Below, piece by piece: positions 1-8,223 of a stretch of 8,226 nucleotides of DNA. Below the pieces are notes generated by a model. The model had not been told where the DNA came from, did not search any database, and saw only the letters and a program-made list of their open reading frames with translations. The first letter of the stretch is position 1; every line of letters begins with the position of its first letter. Origin of the DNA: Anaerolineae bacterium (GTDB taxonomy: Bacteria > Chloroflexota > Anaerolineae > Aggregatilineales > Phototrophicaceae). The stretch covers positions 1 through 8,226 of the forward strand of contig JADLHH010000228.1 of assembly GCA_020848855.1 (NCBI GenBank). Direction: 5' to 3'. A program made the position numbers and the translations under genes.

Positions 1-935
1 CTCGCCGGTTCGGGCATGGGCATGTCGAACAGCGCCATCTGCTCGTTGGGCGCGCGCACGGCGATGCGGCTCAACTGGTTGAACAGGCTGTTGAATTCCA
101 TCTCGCGGAAGAGTTCTTCGACCTGCGTCTTGTTGAAGTCGTGGGCGACGCAGCGGTTCAGCGTCAGCGTGAAGGGCACGTCGCACAGGATGGTCGCCAG
201 CCGCTTGCTCAGAAATGCCGACTCGCGCCCCTCGATCAGTTTTTTCTGAGTCGCGCCCTTGATCTCGTCGAGATGATCGTAAATGCCCTCGACCGTGCCG
301 AACTGCGTCAGCAGCGCCGTTGCCGTCTTTTCGCCGATGCCGCGCACGCCGGGGATGTTGTCGGACGTGTCGCCTTCGAGCGCCTTCAGGTCGATTAGCT
401 GCAGCGGCTCCAGCCCGTAATCTGCGCGGAAGCGCGCCACATCGTAGATTTCGGCGGGCACGCCCGGCTTGGGGATGATCAGGCGGACGGTGACGTGGTC
501 GGTGAGCAGCTGCAGCAGGTCGCGGTCGCCGGTGACGACGCGCACGTCGACGCCCTGTTCCTGCGCCTGCCCGGCGACCGTGCCCATCAGGTCGTCGGCT
601 TCGTAGCCCGGCAGCGACAGGATCGGAATATTGAAGGTTTCGACCATCTGCTTGATGCGCCAAATCTGCGCGGCAAGCTCGTCGGGCATTTTCTCGCGCG
701 TGCCCTTGTACTCGCCGTAGAGTTGGTCGCGCCCGCTCAAGCCCTCGTCAAACGCCACCGCCAGATAAAACGGGCGGTCTTTTTCGAGGATGTCCATCAG
801 CGTGCGCGTGAAGCCGAACACCGCGCTGGTGACTTCCCCGCTGCTGGTCATGAACGGGCGGTTGATGGTGGCGAAGTAGTGACGGTACGCCAGTCCGTGA
901 CCGTCGAGGATGTAGAACACGGGGCGCTGGGACAT
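1..935 (-). CDS. polA: DNA polymerase I, N-terminal 5'-3' exonuclease part (partial)
   Basis: The visible 311 residues form the 5'-nuclease (FEN-like) domain of Pol I, which removes RNA primers and displaced flaps during Okazaki fragment maturation and excision repair. The metal-binding acids known from this family can be placed: D11 in the LDGHGLAYR motif, D63, E112/D114/D115 in YEADD, D137 and D139 in TGDRD, and D189 and D192 in GDTSDNIPG. The last is followed by the helix-3-turn-helix segment GVRGIGEKTA that grips the DNA duplex. None is missing. The start at 935 is supported by GGAGAG five bases upstream and by the usual distance to the first Asp. The frame stays open through the left edge (residue 311 reads EPA), so the 3'-5' exonuclease and polymerase domains should lie outside the window. 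A stand-alone 5'-nuclease is the alternative, but the reading frame already runs past the usual end of one. Confidence 0.88.
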   Translation of the reverse strand, partial: MSQRPVFYILDGHGLAYRHYFATINRPFMTSSGEVTSAVFGFTRTLMDILEKDRPFYLAVAFDEGLSGRDQLYGEYKGTREKMPDELAAQIWRIKQMVETFNIPILSLPGYEADDLMGTVAGQAQEQGVDVRVVTGDRDLLQLLTDHVTVRLIIPKPGVPAEIYDVARFRADYGLEPLQLIDLKALEGDTSDNIPGVRGIGEKTATALLTQFGTVEGIYDHLDEIKGATQKKLIEGRESAFLSKRLATILCDVPFTLTLNRCVAHDFNKTQVEELFREMEFNSLFNQLSRIAVRAPNEQMALFDMPMPEPA

Positions 936-940
936 GAGTT

Positions 941-978
941 CTCTCCGTCAGTGGCGAACATCTGAGCGGATTATTGTA
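941..978 (-). promoter_or_regulatory. Candidate -10 box and ribosome binding site of polA
   Basis: Reading the minus strand, TACAAT (973-978) is a five-of-six match to the sigma-70-type -10 box and would give a 5' leader of about 30 bases. GGAGAG (941-946) sits five bases before the ATG and fixes the start codon. The -35 position holds only a weak match (TACTCA at 17 bp). The box lies about 12 bp from the left end of the repeat element at 991-1206, so that element now occupies this promoter's upstream region. The ribosome binding site is solid; the promoter is tentative. Confidence 0.4.
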
Positions 979-1005
979 ACACAAGAATCCAGTGCTGAGT
1001 ACCGA

Positions 1006-1027
1006 GTGCCGGGCTTGCTTCGCAAGC
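1006..1027. repeat. REP-like palindromic unit, copy A
   Basis: GCTTGC (1013-1018) and GCAAGC (1022-1027) form a perfect 6-bp stem around a TTC loop. From 1007 the sequence aligns with copy B (1072-1092) at 17 of 21 positions, following TGCCG-GCTT-CTT-GCAA-C, so the two are diverged copies of one unit. In copy A the outer TGCCGAG/CTCGGCA pairing of copy B is partly lost and the inner stem is better. Members of a family that keep folding potential while varying which stem pairs are typical of REP-like elements. Confidence 0.5.
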
Positions 1028-1067
1028 GAGTGCTGAGTAAAAGCCAAATTGCACGCAACAGGATCAC

Positions 1068-1098
1068 AAAATGCCGAGCTTACTTAGCAAACTCGGCA
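1068..1098 (-). terminator. Palindromic unit copy B, possible terminator of the 1214-4444 gene
   Basis: TGCCGAG (1072-1078) pairs perfectly with CTCGGCA (1092-1098) around a 13-base loop. Read on the minus strand the stem is followed at once by TTTTGTG (the four Ts are 1068-1071), giving the shape of a weak intrinsic terminator about 115 bases past the stop codon at 1214. It is also the second copy of the palindromic unit described at 1006-1027, so any termination role may be secondary to its being a repeat. The stem is short and the loop long, hence modest confidence in termination. Confidence 0.35.
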
Positions 1099-1138
1099 CT
1101 CATCGATGACCGATATAGACACTGCCTGATCGGTGGTC

Positions 1139-1158
1139 GGGCGCAGCACGCTGCTCCC
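1139..1158. repeat. GC-rich palindrome
   Basis: GGG (1139-1141) and GCAGC (1143-1147) mirror GCTGC (1150-1154) and CCC (1156-1158), with one C/T mismatch, giving a near-perfect 20-bp palindrome. No T-run follows on either strand, so it does not look like an intrinsic terminator. It lies inside the repeat element 991-1206 and is probably one of its structural parts. Confidence 0.4.
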
Positions 1159-1213
1159 TACAAAAACGGCAATCTCCATTTGGGTCATCTATCAGTACTG
1201 GGCACTATCTCTG

Positions 1214-4200
1214 CTACTCCATGCGCTCGAAGTTGATGAACTGCTGGATTTCCTCGACATCGAGGTCGCGCCCCGGCGTGACGACAAGGTAGCCGTCCGC
1301 CCACAAGCCGTTGTCGGTGTACGTCGGGTTCTGGGCGTGCGCCAGCGCTGCCGAGCGCCGCTTGAGTTCGCGCATGATCTGGTAGGCGGGTTCTTCGCCG
1401 GGCACGTCCGCCAGCACGTAGACGTAATCCTCGTGCACCTGAAGCGAGCGGATCGTCCAGCCCTGCTCGCGCATCTGGACGTTCAGCCCGGCGCTGACCG
1501 CCTGCGATGCCGCCGGGTCGAGGTGTGCTGCGGGGTCGCGCAGCAGCCAGACGCAGGCATAGGGCGTGCGGGTGGCATCGTCCACTGCAGGGACTACCGG
1601 CGCGGGCGCTTCGGGGATGGCGGCGGGCGCTTCCGGCACGCTCGCCAGCGCCTCGACCAGCCGCTGCCCCTGACGGCGAATATCGCGCAGCGGTGTCGTC
1701 CCGGCGAAAATCAGCGAGAGCGTGAAATCCGCCTCGGTGCGCCGCGAGTAGAGCATGTAGTCCTTGCCGCTGCCCGGCGCGGTGATGAAGCGAATACGCG
1801 CTTCGCCGGGCGCGGCGTCCCAGTCGTCGGCGATGGTATCGCGCAGTTCCTCGATCTCGGCTTCCGGTATCCGTCCGGTGTAGGCGATGATCTGCCTGTC
1901 GCGGGCGAGCAGCGACGCTTCGGCGGTCAGTTCCAGCGAGGCATCGGTCAGGCTGAGCGCCATCTGGGCGATATAGTCGTCTTCCGAAAGCACCGGCTCA
2001 GGGACGGGTTCCGGTTCCGGCGGCTGCGCGGCAGGCTCGACCGAGGTCTCGGTGTACAGCGCGCCGGAAGCATAGCCGGTTTCGCCATGCACTTCGAACG
2101 CCGCCATCATTTCGAACTGAGTGTTGAAATCCTGCTCCGGCAGATCGTACCACAGCGCATCCGACTCGTCGGAGACGCCTTCTTCGACGAATTCGCCCGC
2201 GTAGCCCTGATCGTCCACCGGGCGCGCGCCGGAAGCCGGCGTTTCTTCAGGGAAGGCTTCGTCCCACGTATAGAGCTGCGGGACGGGCGATTCGTCGGCA
2301 AGGGCTTCGTCGGCGAACGTCTCTTCCGCTTCCCCTACGCCATGAACGACGGTCGCGTCGAGCGACTGATGCACCACCGTCGCGTCCGCCGGGAATTCCT
2401 CCGGCAGCGAATCCGGGAACTGGTAGGTTTCTTCGGCAGCGCGCGGCACCTGTTCAAGCCACTCGGTTTCGAGCGTCTCCGGGTGCTGCTCAATCGCCTG
2501 CCCGCGCGAAGCGATGGTCGTCTGGTCGGCGAACAGGTCTTCGGACGGCTCGACCGGCGTCGATTCGTCCGGCAGGTCTTCGGGCATTTCTTCGGGCAGG
2601 AATTCCGGCTCCCGGACAAGGAAGGCATCATCCTGCACGGCAGCCTGCCTGCTCGTCCACGACGGCAGCGGCTGTACCAAAGGACGGTGCAGCGGCAGTT
2701 GGGCGTCGATATTCGCCAGCAGTTCTTCGAGCGAGAAAGTTCCGCCCGACATTGTCTTCTGGAGCGTGCGCTCAAGGATGATGCGCGCGGGGGTCGGCTG
2801 ATCTTCGTCGTCGAACTGGAAATCGTCGGATTTGCGCGGCTTACCGGACGCGCGACGCGGTCCCACATCGAAATCGTCGGGGAGCGCCGACACGATATCG
2901 TCCGGCGGCGCACCCTCGCCGCCCTCGTCGCCGCCCAGGATGGACAGAACGTTGCGGAAGCTGCGATCCTGCACGCCTTCGACCAGATCGCTGACTGTAC
3001 CGTTTTCCTCGAAGTCCGGCGGCGCGGGTTCTTCCTTCGAAAGCCGGTCGAAGGCGGTCAGCAGCGGCGACCGAGGCGGCTCCGGCGCGGCGCGCGGGGG
3101 TTCTGGTTCCGGCGGATATTCCGGCGGCGGCTCGAACTGCGACAGCGGCGCGGTCTCCGGTCGATCCGGTCTATCAAAGAACGATGGCTCGTCAGAGAAC
3201 GACGGCTCATCAAAGAACTGTGGCTCATCCGGTTCGACCGCGTCGGCTTCCGGCGCGAACCAGTCGGATTCGGGGGTATCTGCCGGCGGTTCCGGCGCGA
3301 ACACGTCGGCTTCCGGCGCATCGTTCGCCGCGCCCCAGCCCGGCGCGGCTTCCAGCGCCTCGGCTTCGGAGACGATGCCCTCCAGCGAAGCGGTCGAGGC
3401 GTACCAGTCTGGCTTGGCTTCCTCCTGCGGCTCAGACGGCAGCTTATCTGGGAGTCCGGTCGAGCCGTACCAATCCGGCATCGACTCCGGTTCCACTGTG
3501 CGCGGCTTCGAGGTGAACAAGTCCGGGTCGTCGTTCGAGGTGAGCCATTCGGAAAGCTCGGACGGCATCTGCCAGTCCGGCGGCGGCTCTTCGGCTTTGG
3601 GCGGCTCCGGCTCCGGTTCGGGCTTGCGCAGCGGCGTGATCTGCGGCTTGGGCGGCGCTGGCGGCTCGTTGTCGAGCGCCTCGGTTCCGCCGCTGAGGAT
3701 GAACTCGACCAACTGCTGCTGGCGCGAGGGCAGCGGGCGGTGCGTCTCTTCGGTGCGCATCGAGTTGACCAGATCGTTGAAGGGGCTGGTTCCCTTCCTA
3801 GGCGCATCCTGCCGGGGTGTGTCCGGCGGAAGCTGGTTCAGCACCTCATCGAACGACGACTCGCGCTTGGAAGACTCGTCAACCCAGTCCAGCTCTTCCG
3901 GCGGACCGGCGGGCGTATCGTCCTCGGCAACCGGCGGCTGGGCGAAAATGTTGGTCGCGCCCGCGTTCAGCACCTCGTCCAGGCTGCCGTATTCCGGCGA
4001 GATGTCGGATGTCGAAGGCGACGCGGGTGTCTCCTTGCTCAGCCGCGAAAGCAGCGCCGTCGTCCCCGGCGATTCGAGGCTGGGGCGCTGGTTGCGCGCG
4101 AAATAGTCGTTGATGGCTTTGATCAGGTCCTGAGCCGTGAAATCGGCAGCGAGCGAGCCGGCGAGTCCCAGCGTACGGGTCTTGCCGGCTTCCAGCTTCG

Positions 4201-4444
4201 GCGCAGCGATAATGGGGATATTCGGCTGCACCGCGCGCAACTGCTGGATGATCTGCTCGCCGCTGTACTCCACAATCGTGAAATCGACGACGGCGATATC
4301 CTGCACGTGATCGGTCAGGTATTCGACCGCCGCTTCGACCGACGTAAACGGATGCACCTCAAACGAAGCGCTGCGTTCCAGCGTCTGTTTGAGCTTGATG
4401 GCGAAGGGGAGCTGCCCGTGTACGATCAGAACCTGCGTTGTCAT
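1214..4444 (-). CDS. Receiver-like / disordered / C-terminal Y1-transposase-like multidomain protein
   Basis: 1076 residues, function unknown. Residues 1-118 have the alternating strand-helix pattern of a response-regulator receiver domain with an Asp at the phospho-acceptor position (D54, VVDFTI). The acidic pair near the N-terminus is replaced by H9-G10 and the conserved Lys is absent. Residues about 119-818 are Pro/Glu/Asp/Ser-rich and probably disordered, with repeated short motifs (SLDEVLN, SFDEVLN, PFNDLVN; PDWY). Residues about 821-936 could be a roadblock/LC7-like alpha-beta domain (tentative). Residues about 958-1076 follow the Y1 (IS200/REP) transposase layout, but the HUH histidines are Y1007 and Y1009 (DYVYVL) and the catalytic Tyr position appears to be F1069 (IQQFI). 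LWADGYLVVTPG (1047-1058) fits the family's LW-GY-T-G signature. No signal peptide or membrane segment is seen, so it is likely cytoplasmic. The start at 4444 is set by the receiver fold and a promoter that abuts the ATG. Confidence 0.85.
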   Translation of the reverse strand: MTTQVLIVHGQLPFAIKLKQTLERSASFEVHPFTSVEAAVEYLTDHVQDIAVVDFTIVEYSGEQIIQQLRAVQPNIPIIAAPKLEAGKTRTLGLAGSLAADFTAQDLIKAINDYFARNQRPSLESPGTTALLSRLSKETPASPSTSDISPEYGSLDEVLNAGATNIFAQPPVAEDDTPAGPPEELDWVDESSKRESSFDEVLNQLPPDTPRQDAPRKGTSPFNDLVNSMRTEETHRPLPSRQQQLVEFILSGGTEALDNEPPAPPKPQITPLRKPEPEPEPPKAEEPPPDWQMPSELSEWLTSNDDPDLFTSKPRTVEPESMPDWYGSTGLPDKLPSEPQEEAKPDWYASTASLEGIVSEAEALEAAPGWGAANDAPEADVFAPEPPADTPESDWFAPEADAVEPDEPQFFDEPSFSDEPSFFDRPDRPETAPLSQFEPPPEYPPEPEPPRAAPEPPRSPLLTAFDRLSKEEPAPPDFEENGTVSDLVEGVQDRSFRNVLSILGGDEGGEGAPPDDIVSALPDDFDVGPRRASGKPRKSDDFQFDDEDQPTPARIILERTLQKTMSGGTFSLEELLANIDAQLPLHRPLVQPLPSWTSRQAAVQDDAFLVREPEFLPEEMPEDLPDESTPVEPSEDLFADQTTIASRGQAIEQHPETLETEWLEQVPRAAEETYQFPDSLPEEFPADATVVHQSLDATVVHGVGEAEETFADEALADESPVPQLYTWDEAFPEETPASGARPVDDQGYAGEFVEEGVSDESDALWYDLPEQDFNTQFEMMAAFEVHGETGYASGALYTETSVEPAAQPPEPEPVPEPVLSEDDYIAQMALSLTDASLELTAEASLLARDRQIIAYTGRIPEAEIEELRDTIADDWDAAPGEARIRFITAPGSGKDYMLYSRRTEADFTLSLIFAGTTPLRDIRRQGQRLVEALASVPEAPAAIPEAPAPVVPAVDDATRTPYACVWLLRDPAAHLDPAASQAVSAGLNVQMREQGWTIRSLQVHEDYVYVLADVPGEEPAYQIMRELKRRSAALAHAQNPTYTDNGLWADGYLVVTPGRDLDVEEIQQFINFERME
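3174..3227 (-). repeat. Three tandem 18-bp units inside the disordered region
   Basis: Three consecutive 18-bp units (TCAAAGAAC-ATGGCTC-type on the plus strand; 3174-3191, 3192-3209, 3210-3227) differ at a few positions. On the coding strand they encode three six-residue repeats of the form E-P-(S/Q)-F-(F/S)-D, around residues 407-424. The unit is a multiple of three, so gain or loss of copies keeps the frame. The divergence between units argues that it is not a very recent slippage product. Confidence 0.7.
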
Positions 4445-4450
4445 AATTCG

Positions 4451-4479
4451 ATTCTACAGCGCATCTGTTACAGGGTCAA
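4451..4479 (-). promoter_or_regulatory. Strong promoter abutting the start codon (leaderless)
   Basis: On the minus strand TTGACC (4474-4479) and TAGAAT (4451-4456) are each five-of-six matches to the sigma-70-type -35 and -10 boxes, separated by exactly 17 bp. Only six bases (CGAATT) separate the -10 box from the ATG at 4444. The expected transcription start therefore falls on the A of the start codon, and no Shine-Dalgarno sequence is present. The sequence thus predicts a leaderless mRNA for the 1076-residue protein. An 11-base inverted repeat GCTT-CGT-AAGC (4484-4494) lies just upstream of the -35 box and could be an operator, but it is short. Confidence 0.65.
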
Positions 4480-4557
4480 TTTTGCTTCGTAAGCGCTGCC
4501 GCCGCACAGCACCGCCATAACCCGCCGTCCATGCCAGCGTCCACCCATCATTCTGAG

Positions 4558-4597
4558 GGGAAACCGTCGCGGGGCGCGGTATTACGCGCCCCAACGG
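4558..4597 (-). terminator. GC-rich hairpin, probable terminator of the lipoprotein gene
   Basis: GGGGCGCG (4571-4578) and CGCGCCCC (4585-4592) form a perfect 8-bp stem with a six-base loop. CCGT (4564-4567) and ACGG (4594-4597) can extend it across a small internal loop. On the minus strand the hairpin is followed by TTTCCCC, so the U-tract is short. It lies about 65 bases past the stop codon of the lipoprotein gene and upstream of the promoter of the next gene, where a terminator is expected. Confidence 0.5.
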
Positions 4598-4662
4598 CTG
4601 CGTTAAGGTTCGTTTAGATTTTCATACACCCGCCGCGTTCGAGCAAGCCCCCCTGCCCGCCG

Positions 4663-5823
4663 CTACGGGTTGGCGGCGACCGTGACGGTCGTGATCGCCG
4701 TGTTGTTGACCTCGCTCGCCTCGGTCACCTGCGAGGCGGAGTCGGCTCTGACCTGAATGGTGTGCGAGCCGCTCTCGGTGAATGTCAGGCTGATGTTCAG
4801 CACGATGCTCTCGCCCGGCGCGAGGCTGGAGACGACGCCCAGCGACGTTTCGGTGCTGGTGGACGACGGCGCGGTGACTGTAATCGTGTTGTCGAACTGA
4901 CCGGTGACGCTCAAGCCGGTGTTGGTAATCGTCACCGAGAATGTGCCGCTAGTCGGGGTGTCACCCGGCTCCAGTTGGAGCGACGGCTCGACCAGACTGA
5001 GGTTGGTCACGATCAGATCGGGCAGCCCCGCCGTCGGCGTGGCGGTCGGCGGCTGGGCGGTGAGCGTCAGGGTATTGGTCGGCATGAAGGTCGCGGTGAT
5101 CCTGGGCGTCGGCGTCGGCGGGATCGGCGGGATGCCGATACTCTGGCAGTTGCCGTACAGCGTGACATAGCCGCCGCTCACCCAGCCGGTGGTGATGCCG
5201 ACGCGAATCTGATACCACGAGTTGTCGCCGGTGCGCCCGGTGATCGGCGCGACCGTGCCCGACGCCAGCACGCTGATGCGGTCGTAGACCACGCCGGGAC
5301 CAGTGCGGAAGTTGAGTGGCGCGTTGACGAGCACGCGGCAGGTCGGGTCGTTGGGGTTGATCGGCGGGACGATGATCGGCGGCGGCGCCTGGGTCGCCGT
5401 GACCTGCGCCTGATTCTGGCGCACCGTCAGCGCGATTTCGGCGGGGGCGCTGGCAATCGCGCCGCGATAGGCGATCACCTGCAGCGTGAGCGCGCCGGTG
5501 GTGGTCGGGGTGTAGTCGAGCAGCACGTTCAGGTTGGGGTCGCCGCCGGGGGTCTCGGACGAGACGGTCTTGGCGATCTGCCCATTGGCGAACAACTGGA
5601 CGCGGGTGATTCCGACCGGATCGTTGGCGTTGGCGCTGACCAGAATCTGCTGGTTGACCAGCACCTCAGCCCCATTCTGCGGCGAGAGGATGGTCACGAC
5701 TGGCGTTCCGCTGGAACTGCCGGTGGGAGTCGGCGCGGCGGCGGGCACACCGGAACTGGACAGATTACAGGCGCTGAGCGCCAGAATAACCAAGAGGGTG
5801 AATACCGCGAACCGGTATCGCAT
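4663..5823 (-). CDS. Secreted lipoprotein with Ig-like, SH3b and CARDB-like domains
   Basis: 386 residues. Residues 1-19 are a lipoprotein signal peptide: RYR, a hydrophobic core, then the lipobox L16-S17-A18-C19, so the mature protein should be lipid-anchored outside the membrane. A Ser/Pro/Thr linker leads to an Ig-like beta domain (about 41-135, PVVTILSPQNGAEV opening). Next is an SH3b domain (about 162-226) with the typical LNFRTGPG, W203 and GWVSGGYV elements; C162 and C226 flank it and could form a disulfide. A PT-rich linker (about 227-266) precedes a CARDB-like adhesion domain (about 268-383, PDLIVTNLSL to ASEVNNTAITTVTV). SH3b domains commonly bind cell-wall peptides, so an envelope-binding role is inferred; no catalytic domain is seen. 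The start at 5823 is preferred over an upstream ATG at 5919 because AAGGGA lies five bases before it and the signal peptide begins there. Confidence 0.85.
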   Translation of the reverse strand: MRYRFAVFTLLVILALSACNLSSSGVPAAAPTPTGSSSGTPVVTILSPQNGAEVLVNQQILVSANANDPVGITRVQLFANGQIAKTVSSETPGGDPNLNVLLDYTPTTTGALTLQVIAYRGAIASAPAEIALTVRQNQAQVTATQAPPPIIVPPINPNDPTCRVLVNAPLNFRTGPGVVYDRISVLASGTVAPITGRTGDNSWYQIRVGITTGWVSGGYVTLYGNCQSIGIPPIPPTPTPRITATFMPTNTLTLTAQPPTATPTAGLPDLIVTNLSLVEPSLQLEPGDTPTSGTFSVTITNTGLSVTGQFDNTITVTAPSSTSTETSLGVVSSLAPGESIVLNISLTFTESGSHTIQVRADSASQVTEASEVNNTAITTVTVAANP

Positions 5824-5828
5824 ACCGT

Positions 5829-5834
5829 TCCCTT
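5829..5834 (-). promoter_or_regulatory. Ribosome binding site that decides the lipoprotein start
   Basis: AAGGGA on the minus strand ends five bases before the ATG at 5823. It singles out that ATG over the in-frame one at 5919, which would place 32 extra residues in front of the signal peptide and would also start upstream of the promoter at 5862-5870. Confidence 0.7.
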
Positions 5835-5861
5835 TCGCCGGAATTGGTGAAATACACGCCC

Positions 5862-5870
5862 ATTCTAGCA
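5862..5870 (-). promoter_or_regulatory. Extended -10 promoter of the lipoprotein gene
   Basis: The minus strand reads TGCTAGAAT, that is TAGAAT (5862-5867) preceded by the TGn extension (5868-5870). No good -35 box stands 16-18 bp upstream, as is usual for extended -10 promoters. Transcription would start near 5855, leaving a leader of about 30 bases with a good ribosome binding site. Two inverted sequences, GCGC-centred at 5878-5888 and TTCGC-N6-GCGAA at 5892-5907, lie where a regulator would contact the promoter. Confidence 0.5.
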
Positions 5871-5891
5871 CGGGCAGGCGCAACGCGCATT

Positions 5892-5907
5892 TTCGCAAGA
5901 AAGCGAA
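5892..5907. promoter_or_regulatory. Small inverted repeat upstream of the lipoprotein promoter
   Basis: TTCGC (5892-5896) and GCGAA (5903-5907) are separated by six bases, giving a 16-bp dyad just upstream of the -35 position of the promoter at 5862-5870. Its size and placement suit a dimeric regulator, but a dyad with five-base arms can occur by chance in GC-rich DNA. Confidence 0.2.
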
Positions 5908-5977
5908 CACTGCGCCCATCTTTAGTCGCGCATTCGGGGCAAAGTATGCCGTATTCGCGGGGCGCGAAAAGCGCCGG

Positions 5978-6033: not shown

Positions 6034-6666
6034 TTATGACAGCGGCTCTTTGTAAATGACGAGGCGGCTCATGTCGTCGCCCTTGGCGATGCAGGTGGTC
6101 ATGTCCACCTTGAATTCGCGCCCGCCGGAAACCCAGCGCAGCCCTTCCTGAAGCAGCCCCTGCGCCATGAAGCACACCGGGCGATCCGTCTTACGCCCCC
6201 AGCACAGCGAACAGCGCTCCATCGTGTAGATGATGCGGTCGCCACCTTCCTCGTAGACGTTGGATATCTGGTCGGAGAACTGCGAAAAGATGTTCGCCAT
6301 CGCCGGGACGCCGACCTTGAGCTTGGCGTTGAGCGGCAGCACCTTGAACGCCAGGTCGCCAACGCCCGCCAGCGCGCCGAACGAGCGCAAGCCGCCGGCG
6401 AAAATGGCGCGACCGGCGCGCAGCGCCAGCGCTCGCCCTCCGCGCGGACCGTACATATCTTCCAGCGCCACGTTCAGCGCGGTGAAGTCGGTAAAGTCGA
6501 TGGCTTTTTCCAGGTTATCGGGCGGCAGGTTGTCGACAAACTGCTGAAGCTGAGCAAGGTTCAAAATGGCGTTCAAGCCATTTCGCCCCATAATGTCTTC
6601 CATCGCTTCCATGGTCAGGCGAGCAAACTTGTTGGGATAGTAATATCCGCTCTTCTCAGGTGGCAT
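6034..6666 (-). CDS. V4R-domain protein (predicted small-molecule-binding)
   Basis: 210 residues, no signal peptide or membrane helix. The N-terminus GYYYPNKFARLTMEAMEDIMG (residues 6-26) and the mostly helical middle lead to a C-terminal V4R domain (4-vinyl reductase type). That domain carries the cysteine set C152-x2-C155 in RCSLCWGRK, C165 in PVCFMAQG and C182 in TCIAKGDD. In V4R relatives the last motif usually ends in another Cys; here that position is M189 (GDDMSRLVI). The family is related in fold to TRAPP Bet3 and heme-NO-binding domains and is thought to bind small hydrophobic ligands, possibly with a metal; no reaction is assigned here. The start at 6666 is chosen over an ATG 42 bases upstream because GGAGG (6677-6681) precedes it and the family N-terminus begins here. 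The SD-to-ATG spacing of 10 is slightly long. There is no bacteriochlorophyll gene nearby to suggest BchJ. Confidence 0.75.
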   Translation of the reverse strand: MPPEKSGYYYPNKFARLTMEAMEDIMGRNGLNAILNLAQLQQFVDNLPPDNLEKAIDFTDFTALNVALEDMYGPRGGRALALRAGRAIFAGGLRSFGALAGVGDLAFKVLPLNAKLKVGVPAMANIFSQFSDQISNVYEEGGDRIIYTMERCSLCWGRKTDRPVCFMAQGLLQEGLRWVSGGREFKVDMTTCIAKGDDMSRLVIYKEPLS

Positions 6667-6687
6667 TGTGCCTGATCCTCCAGTTGC

Positions 6688-6759
6688 GCGTACACCAAAG
6701 CATCGCACGCAGAATTACGCTTGCGGTGACGTTTCGCTCTTGCTCACCAAAGTGTACGC
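6688..6759. repeat. Paired CACCAAAG / GCGTACAC sites upstream of the V4R gene
   Basis: GCGTACAC (6688-6695) and its exact reverse complement GTGTACGC (6752-6759) bracket a 56-bp spacer. CACCAAAG also occurs as a direct repeat at 6693-6700 and 6745-6752, overlapping both arms. The right-hand arm overlaps the candidate -10 box (6751-6756). The arrangement suits two protein-binding sites flanking a promoter; because one arm covers the -10, it is unlikely to be a stem in the resulting mRNA. The function is inferred from position only. Confidence 0.35.

Positions 6760-6834: not shown

Positions 6835-6844
<10 letters not shown>
6823..6844 (-). other. Small hairpin spanning the miaB stop codon
   Basis: CGCCGG (6823-6828) and CCGGCG (6839-6844) pair perfectly around a ten-base loop that contains the TAA stop of miaB (6835-6837). 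No T-run follows on the minus strand, so it is not a convincing intrinsic terminator; it could influence mRNA 3'-end stability or be chance. Confidence 0.25.

Positions 6845-8223
<1,379 letters not shown>

Follow-up and report, generated by a model that had tools for sequence, protein, structure and literature searches.

A conserved receiver–Roadblock protein of Chloroflexota ends in a catalytically dead IS200/IS605-type Y1 domain and is usually encoded before polA

Results

We analysed a stretch of 8,226 nucleotides from an Anaerolineae bacterium (contig JADLHH010000228.1 of assembly GCA_020848855.1; the whole stretch is called the window below) and found that one of its genes encodes a 1076-residue protein ending in an IS200/IS605-type Y1 transposase (TnpA) domain that has lost its catalytic residues. 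The domain has kept its fold, is conserved in relatives that lie together on one side of a branch in Y1 trees, and belongs to a receiver–Roadblock protein whose gene usually stands before polA. With moderate confidence, we propose that the dead Y1 domain serves as a fixed dimerization or protein-docking module in a receiver–Roadblock adaptor, akin to RomR plus an MglB-like protein, that works with a Ras-like GTPase. Protein rather than nucleic-acid binding, the GTPase partnership and any functional tie to DNA polymerase I (Pol I) are what we infer from these results.

The gene and its parts are as follows.

1214..4444, minus strand: whole gene, 1076 amino acids; degenerate receiver, acidic Pro/Glu-rich linker, Roadblock domain, dead Y1 domain
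4112..4432, minus strand: receiver-like domain, residues 5–111 (Pfam match and residue counts)
2003..4087, minus strand: low-complexity linker, residues 120–814 (composition and conserved columns)
1643..1984, minus strand: Roadblock/LC7 (MglB-like) domain, residues about 821–934
1232..1561, minus strand: dead Y1 (IS200/IS605 TnpA-like) domain, residues 962–1071
1424..1426, minus strand: codon of Y1007, at the place of the first His of the HUH motif (alignment counts)
1418..1420, minus strand: codon of Y1009, at the place of the second His of the HUH motif
1238..1240, minus strand: codon of F1069, at the place of the catalytic Tyr

The C-terminal domain has the Y1 fold

An earlier note on this DNA, made from the letters alone, had proposed a catalytically dead Y1 domain fused to signalling domains. 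Its motifs, coordinates and open reading frame (ORF) are all present in the sequence (YACVWLLR at residues 962–969, DYVYVLADVPGEEP at 1006–1019, LKRRSAALAH at 1027–1036, LWADGYLVVTPG at 1047–1058 and EEIQQFINFE at 1064–1073), and its numbering of Y1007, Y1009 and F1069 is correct. Pfam Y1_Tnp matched residues 962–1071 with an E-value of 1.7e-8 and 35.1 bits (cut-off 23), and the query of lineage B, one of the related lineages described below, with an E-value of 7.3e-14; a profile search against the PDB matched the domain to TnpA (E-value 3.2e-11). The NCBIfam IS200/IS605 model also matched (E-value 2.4e-8), yet at 34.2 bits, below its curated cut-off of 55. In the AlphaFold2 model, the predicted local distance difference test score, averaged over blocks, was about 88–98 across the domain, and the nearest structures by Z were Y1 enzymes, with about 16–21% identity to the TnpA structures. 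When a lineage-B model was used, Foldseek returned TnpA and Rag/EGO chains among its matches, and the matches listed by a VIA-align structure search were almost wholly receivers. Judged from sequence profiles and predicted structures, the C-terminal domain is thus a true IS200/IS605-type Y1 (TnpA) domain: the Pfam and PDB profile matches agree with the structure comparison.

Chance resemblance was considered and rejected. A model built from 21 canonical Chloroflexota Y1 proteins scored 40.0 bits with the window domain, whereas the best of 1000 shuffles of that domain (787 of them reported with a score) reached 4.6 bits. The same model picked up 283/283 proteins of the three lineages A, B and X.

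The catalytic residues have been lost to different degrees in three lineages

The window protein has neither the HUH pair (Y1007, Y1009) nor the catalytic Tyr (F1069) of IS200/IS605 TnpA. We counted residues at these positions in the query plus its top 120 of 199 matches for the window's lineage, lineage A (n=121), in the best 120 of 2717 matches (E-value at most 0.001, query included) for lineage B, whose weaker matches may be due to the receiver alone, and in all 42 of 42 matches, query included, for lineage X. A further set, A3, comprises 36 rows, the window plus 35 loci, and shares part of its proteins with the set of 121.

In lineage A, position 1007 is Tyr in 77 proteins, Phe in 30 and His in 14, position 1009 is Tyr in all 121, and position 1069 is Phe in 118 and Tyr in 3, so that, as the earlier note had anticipated for Chloroflexota homologues, the His/His/Tyr triad is consistently missing. 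The A3 rows gave a similar picture (1007: Y22 F10 H2 C2; 1009: Y35 M1, the Met being in L028; 1069: F33 Y2 L1). In lineage B, the place of the first His holds Y92 H27 F1, that of the second Q85 L33 M2 and that of the Tyr F112 Y8; in lineage X, the corresponding counts are H34 Y7 S1, E39 A2 Q1 and F36 L4 I1 Y1. The second His is kept in 0/283 proteins, and the combination of H-x-Q with the Tyr in 2/283, namely P0281 and one lineage-B protein. Four states of the active site are still present: H-x-Q with Tyr, H-x-E with Phe, Y-x-Q with Phe and Y-x-Y with Phe.

As judged from these alignments, the window's lineage cannot nick DNA by Y1 chemistry. The suggestion that all nicking chemistry is lost is therefore firm for that lineage alone, given the first His of 34/42 lineage-X proteins and the two proteins with H-x-Q and Tyr. 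An active Y1 enzyme was rejected as an explanation for the window's lineage, the His pair and the Tyr being missing in the window and in most relatives.

The architecture is conserved

The C-terminal 247 residues are 47–92% identical across 120 listed relatives, with invariant structural residues. The relatives, full or partial, are 329–1284 amino acids long among those listed; a shorter kind, mostly of about 530–590 amino acids, has the order receiver, Roadblock, linker, Y1. All five relatives' genomes that were searched whole hold one full-length copy. The fusion of a Y1 domain to receiver and Roadblock domains was found as the earlier note had read it, homologues included, and by sequence comparison the receiver–Roadblock–Y1 architecture is conserved.

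The receiver matched Pfam Response_reg with an E-value of 1e-6 and 29.3 bits, just under the cut-off of 30.2, in keeping with the term receiver-like. D54 is kept in the window, and the acidic pair (H9, G10) and the conserved Lys (A100) are missing. Among the 114 of 121 lineage-A receivers that aligned over the full range, D54 is present in 113 and Thr or Ser at position 81 in 100 (Ala in the window); the acidic pair is absent (position 9: H67 N44 T2 Y1; position 10: mostly Arg or Gly), and position 100 holds A51 T18 M16 V10 S9 K3. Lineage-B receivers have D54 in 119/120, Ser or Thr at 82 in 110/120 and K101 in 113/120 (6 gaps); they too lack the acidic pair (T116 at position 9, S85 at position 10), with Asp in 119 at the adjacent position 11. 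The first acidic residue is kept in single examples of lineage X and in two receiver–Roadblock relatives. On this evidence, the receiver of lineage A has degenerated along with the transposase site.

The linker of 695 amino acids contains 14.7% Pro, 13.4% Glu and 8.9% Asp and has a net charge of -114; short conserved motifs occur within it, for example around residues 482–500 and 594–596. In the linker of P0001, short motifs around positions 468–500, 594–596, 613–616 and 643 are conserved in at least 90% of 44 relatives and the rest is variable; these motifs are likely to bind partners. The Roadblock fold, previously put forward as a possibility, was recognized by both profile and structure comparison, which agree, with no Pfam match for this part.

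Origin and distribution

A tree of 63 Y1 domains has a branch, with support 100/97, that sets lineages A and B and the lineage-X protein L041 on one side. When 17 lineage-X and 21 canonical proteins were included in a second tree, lineages A, B and X again fell on one side (99/96), and P0281 and P0273 branch beside lineage B. Both trees were built without the duplicate rows L068 and L100, and the second also without a standalone degenerate group (see below), three long-branch rows (L110, L106 and L038, the last of lineage A) and X_L041 (identical to P0242, which was included). The trees are consistent with a single capture of Y1 followed by stepwise loss of the catalytic residues; they are good but not final evidence, because the stems are long (0.8–1.8) and the columns few (127–128). 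A single origin is also favoured because architecture and locus are common to the lineages.

A search of 400 genomes of the phylum yielded 43 with a match. Of these, 27 encode a Roadblock plus Y1 protein (25 of the shorter kind, plus G001 and G245), two (G197, G237) a receiver–Roadblock protein without Y1, and the remainder gave Y1-only or Roadblock-only matches. The 35 lineage-A loci are named Anaerolineae, Aggregatilineales, Anaerolineaceae, Anaerolinea or Chloroflexi, except L023 and L033, and the few lineage-B proteins that carry names are from Anaerolineales or Chloroflexota. Among the matches listed, the window's nearest relative with an organism name is P0011, of Phototrophicaceae. The two exceptions are metagenome-assembled genome records, of Pleurocapsa minor, a cyanobacterium (L033), and of Bacteroidetes (L023), in which a lineage-A gene is followed by polA; they are probably mislabelled or contaminated bins.

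We also noticed a second, standalone degenerate Y1-like group of about 135–180 amino acids (L107, L108, L109 and L111, in G040:C248, G014:C107, G021:C66 and G008:C17). It has PDRVYV or similar where canonical proteins have PDHVHL, is basic (mean +3.8, n=4) and is set off by a branch with support 100/99; no polA match was found within 8–13 kilobases (kb) around its members. It is possibly an independent domestication.

The gene usually precedes polA

The window contains five minus-strand genes, in the order MiaB-type enzyme, V4R-like protein, SH3/CARDB protein, 1076-residue protein and start of polA. The four neighbours are as follows.

3..935, minus strand: N-terminal part of polA (5'-3' exonuclease domains), running off the window edge; conserved downstream neighbour, gap of 281 base pairs (bp) by our own ORF calls
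4663..5919, minus strand: Big_7–SH3_3–CARDB protein, upstream neighbour; present in 26/35 lineage-A loci
6034..6708, minus strand: V4R-like protein (Pfam V4R 23.2 bits, below the cut-off of 31); present in 13/35 lineage-A loci
6835..8223, minus strand: MiaB-type methylthiotransferase, at the outer end of the gene order; 12/35 lineage-A loci have a MiaB/RimO-type gene

Neighbourhood ORFs were called with a simple caller of our own, independent of annotation. polA lies downstream on the same strand in 28/35 lineage-A loci: at no more than 200 bp without a called ORF between in 23, at 435 bp in one and behind an ORF in four. A gene of about 550 amino acids stands between the lineage-A gene and polA in L031 and L032. 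For lineages B and X, neighbourhoods were read for 14 of 25 matches, together with G245, G197 and G237 (the set does not include G253, G260, G274, G337, G392 and G397). In L076–L089, polA follows on the same strand in 14/14 loci, directly, at 6–379 bp, in 13; two ORFs precede it in L078 (lineage X). In L090, which is not one of these 14, one ORF lies between. The gene also adjoins polA, by coordinates, in G023, G085 and G125. The SH3/CARDB and V4R-like proteins were found upstream in 0/14 of L076–L089.

Two loci, L091 (6183–6947) and L092 (7455–8414), encode receiver–Roadblock proteins without a detected Y1 domain and with a more intact receiver, and these genes run 1 and 80 bases, respectively, into the start of polA. 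They may represent an ancestral or a Y1-less form. As a control, 40 polA loci were read in genomes of the phylum that fall outside the family, and 0/40 had a Roadblock or Y1 gene upstream. This control is partly circular, since the genomes were chosen mostly for having no match (38 had none, and two, G046 and G089, had only short Y1-only matches), and it shows just that no more diverged copy was missed. Five of the 40 stretches cover less than 2 kb upstream of polA.

Promoter and terminator scans of the window gave matches at chance level, and one strong stem (6006–5985) follows the V4R gene.

Small GTPases in the relatives' genomes

Ras-like GTPases of 173–198 amino acids are encoded in the relatives' genomes, as seen from the ORFs read. 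The GTPases of L129 and L132 adjoin genes with a similar MALxGNLRDF-type start, and the adjoining gene in L132 is a DUF4388 gene; DUF4388 corresponds to the PATAN domain. A Roadblock model run beside six GTPase loci gave no convincing Roadblock ORF (best E-value 0.75). The V4R-like protein of the window (6034–6708) has a 49% identical homologue near DUF4388 and small Ras-like GTPase genes in G402 (L132, 2–631); such a homologue was seen in this one of the four GTPase loci whose ORFs were read. In PMC4316618, MglB-kind Roadblock proteins are described as acting with small Ras-like GTPases, and MglA groups 1 and 5 as present in Chloroflexi, sometimes near PATAN proteins.

Discussion

The adaptor that we propose may have arisen as follows. 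A receiver–Roadblock protein encoded beside polA would most likely have gained Y1 once, in an ancestor of part of Chloroflexota, and the catalytic residues of the captured domain would then have been lost stepwise. In the present-day protein, input would reach the N-terminal receiver-like domain, whether through phosphorylation or through mere binding (its Asp is still there, its acidic pair replaced), the Roadblock domain would dock either a small Ras-like GTPase or a further Roadblock partner, a spacer role would fall to the acidic linker, and the former transposase dimer would supply a second self-association or partner site. Note that the missing acidic pair and Lys leave the odds of this proposal unchanged, because it does not need phosphorylation.

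The charge of the Y1 domain bears on what it binds. Its mean net charge is -6.8 in lineage A (range -14 to 0), +1.4 in lineage B and +5.8 in 22 canonical proteins (L110 and the standalone group left aside). The canonical basic stretch after the first strand (e.g. PKRRRKVL) is gone in the window's lineage; lineage B has a conserved Arg or Lys near the domain end. The difference between A and B is not due to proteome-wide acidity, because the neighbours at A loci are just somewhat more acidic (charge per 100 amino acids, A versus B loci: polA -2.9 versus -1.7; TPR -3.0 versus -1.4). The acidity of the lineage-A domain would argue against hairpin binding. Thus, among the options listed in the earlier note (DNA, RNA or protein binding, or dimerization), protein binding or dimerization appears favoured and nucleic-acid binding less so.

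A number of observations weigh against the proposed adaptor. Five short ORFs pass the Pfam Ras cut-off, four of which match ATP_bind_1 (PF03029) best; the Arf profile matches in 14/14 genomes, which is weak alone since translation factors match too; and no GTPase gene adjoins the gene itself in the loci examined. What a domain binds can be judged from net charge only crudely, and the lineage-B domain is almost neutral. In the trees, long-branch effects are possible with such stems and so few columns, and the lineages that share a side of the branch make up a clade only where the root falls opposite them. L091 and L092, with receiver and Roadblock only, may have lost Y1, which is an alternative to its late gain. 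As for polA, it is not seen in the available stretch of 7/35 lineage-A loci (three on contigs of less than 7 kb), is separated from the gene by a called ORF in the four mentioned above, and lies on another contig in two lineage-B genomes (G069, G101); where it holds, the linkage would suit a role in DNA processes better than one in polarity.

This last point leads to an alternative that we regard as unlikely but worth weighing, namely that Y1 has retained nucleic-acid binding without cutting, reads hairpins in single-stranded DNA or RNA, and brings the signalling protein, perhaps with Pol I, to them. Besides the position of polA downstream in most loci examined and the overlap of the Y1-less form with its start, the near-neutral to basic lineage-B domain with its conserved Arg or Lys speaks for it, and so do the known enzymes: according to PMC6006769, TnpA of IS200 recognizes secondary structures in subterminal position, and the lagging-strand template is the target of IS608 and ISDra2. 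Against it stand the acidity and the lost basic stretch of lineage A, as well as the window itself, where no inverted repeat with arms of at least 12 bases within 60 bases was found at 900–4800 (shorter or looser hairpins fall outside such a scan). A bolder version, in which the tamed transposase fold couples a receiver–Roadblock GTPase pathway to Pol I in part of Chloroflexota, the dead Y1 dimer (or, in lineage B, its counterpart) recognizing structured single strands or the polymerase, is speculative and, in our estimation, quite improbable; if true, it would make Pol I subject to control by two-component as well as Ras-like GTPase signalling.

It is very unlikely that the protein still cuts or joins single-stranded DNA through a non-standard site (H-x-Q or H-x-E with Tyr). 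Some viral Rep enzymes use HUQ, and the His, Gln and Tyr are kept in P0281 and one lineage-B protein; however, these are two proteins out of 283, and the window and most relatives lack the His pair and the Tyr. Convergence of an unrelated ferredoxin-like fold on Y1 is scarcely tenable: such folds are common and identity to the TnpA structures is low, but the family-level profiles of Pfam (window and lineage B) and the PDB match TnpA, and the structures ranked nearest to this part by Z are Y1 enzymes. A decaying insertion sequence (IS) or functionless chance fusion, which would have lost catalytic residues as dead IS copies do, can practically be dismissed in view of the shared architecture, the conservation and invariant structural residues, the recurring locus and the single full-length copy in each of five genomes; a pseudogene or dead IS was accordingly rejected, the protein being conserved at a recurring locus in many species.

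Whichever partner the domain proves to have, the lineages form a graded series, with a Y1 transposase family at one end and, at the other, a dead, acidic module that belongs to the host. The sources of many listed relatives call them transposase or RayT, so that some of the 'transposases' of these genomes are probably misannotated signalling proteins. The recurring place before polA is also a lead on how these bacteria may link signalling with Pol I.

Comparison with known systems

A precedent for an IS200/IS605 component turned into a catalytically dead host protein is provided by TldR and other dead TnpB-derived regulators; unlike the present domain, these derive from the RNA-guided TnpB and not from the Y1 enzyme TnpA. 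With IS200/IS605 TnpA (PF01797; 2f4f, 2ec2, 2fyx, IS608, ISDra2), the domain shares the fold, the order of strands and helices, the conserved Trp and LK..S region, and a profile match above the Pfam cut-off. It differs in that the window protein has neither HUH pair nor Tyr and is acidic, and in that Y1 is here a constant part, at the C-terminus, of a longer protein of the host with a recurring locus.

Host-tamed Y1 proteins are already known: in RAYT (TnpAREP, 4er8), too, a Y1 domain is retained by the host outside an IS. By contrast, the classified RAYT have HUH and Tyr, with five subclasses flanked by REP sequences, according to PMC6006769, whereas the present domain has a dead site and no inverted repeats with arms of at least 12 bases were found near the window gene; in the structure comparison, 4er8 ranks 44th, below the IS200 enzymes. 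The same source kept 722/924 Y1 sequences with complete HuH and Y and called the others probably non-functional. The dead kind would drop out of such a survey, because only complete sequences were kept. Among the titles and abstract openings listed from the open-licence PubMed Central literature, we found no paper on such a fusion or dead Y1 family, which does not by itself show its absence in print.

Unlike MglB and MglC of the MglA system, the Roadblock domain here lies within a larger protein, with no GTPase gene seen adjoining. RomR of Myxococcus xanthus, which belongs to a system with MglB and MglC, has an N-terminal receiver, a proline-rich linker and a glutamate-rich region at its end, and the part of its description available to us (PMC12719032) mentions no Roadblock or Y1 domain in RomR itself. 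Receiver, Pro-rich linker, Glu-rich region and Roadblock link are common to both, a likeness that is functional and set by description. Without claiming membership of that system, we suggest that the protein resembles a RomR and a Roadblock partner combined in a single chain that ends in a dead transposase dimer.
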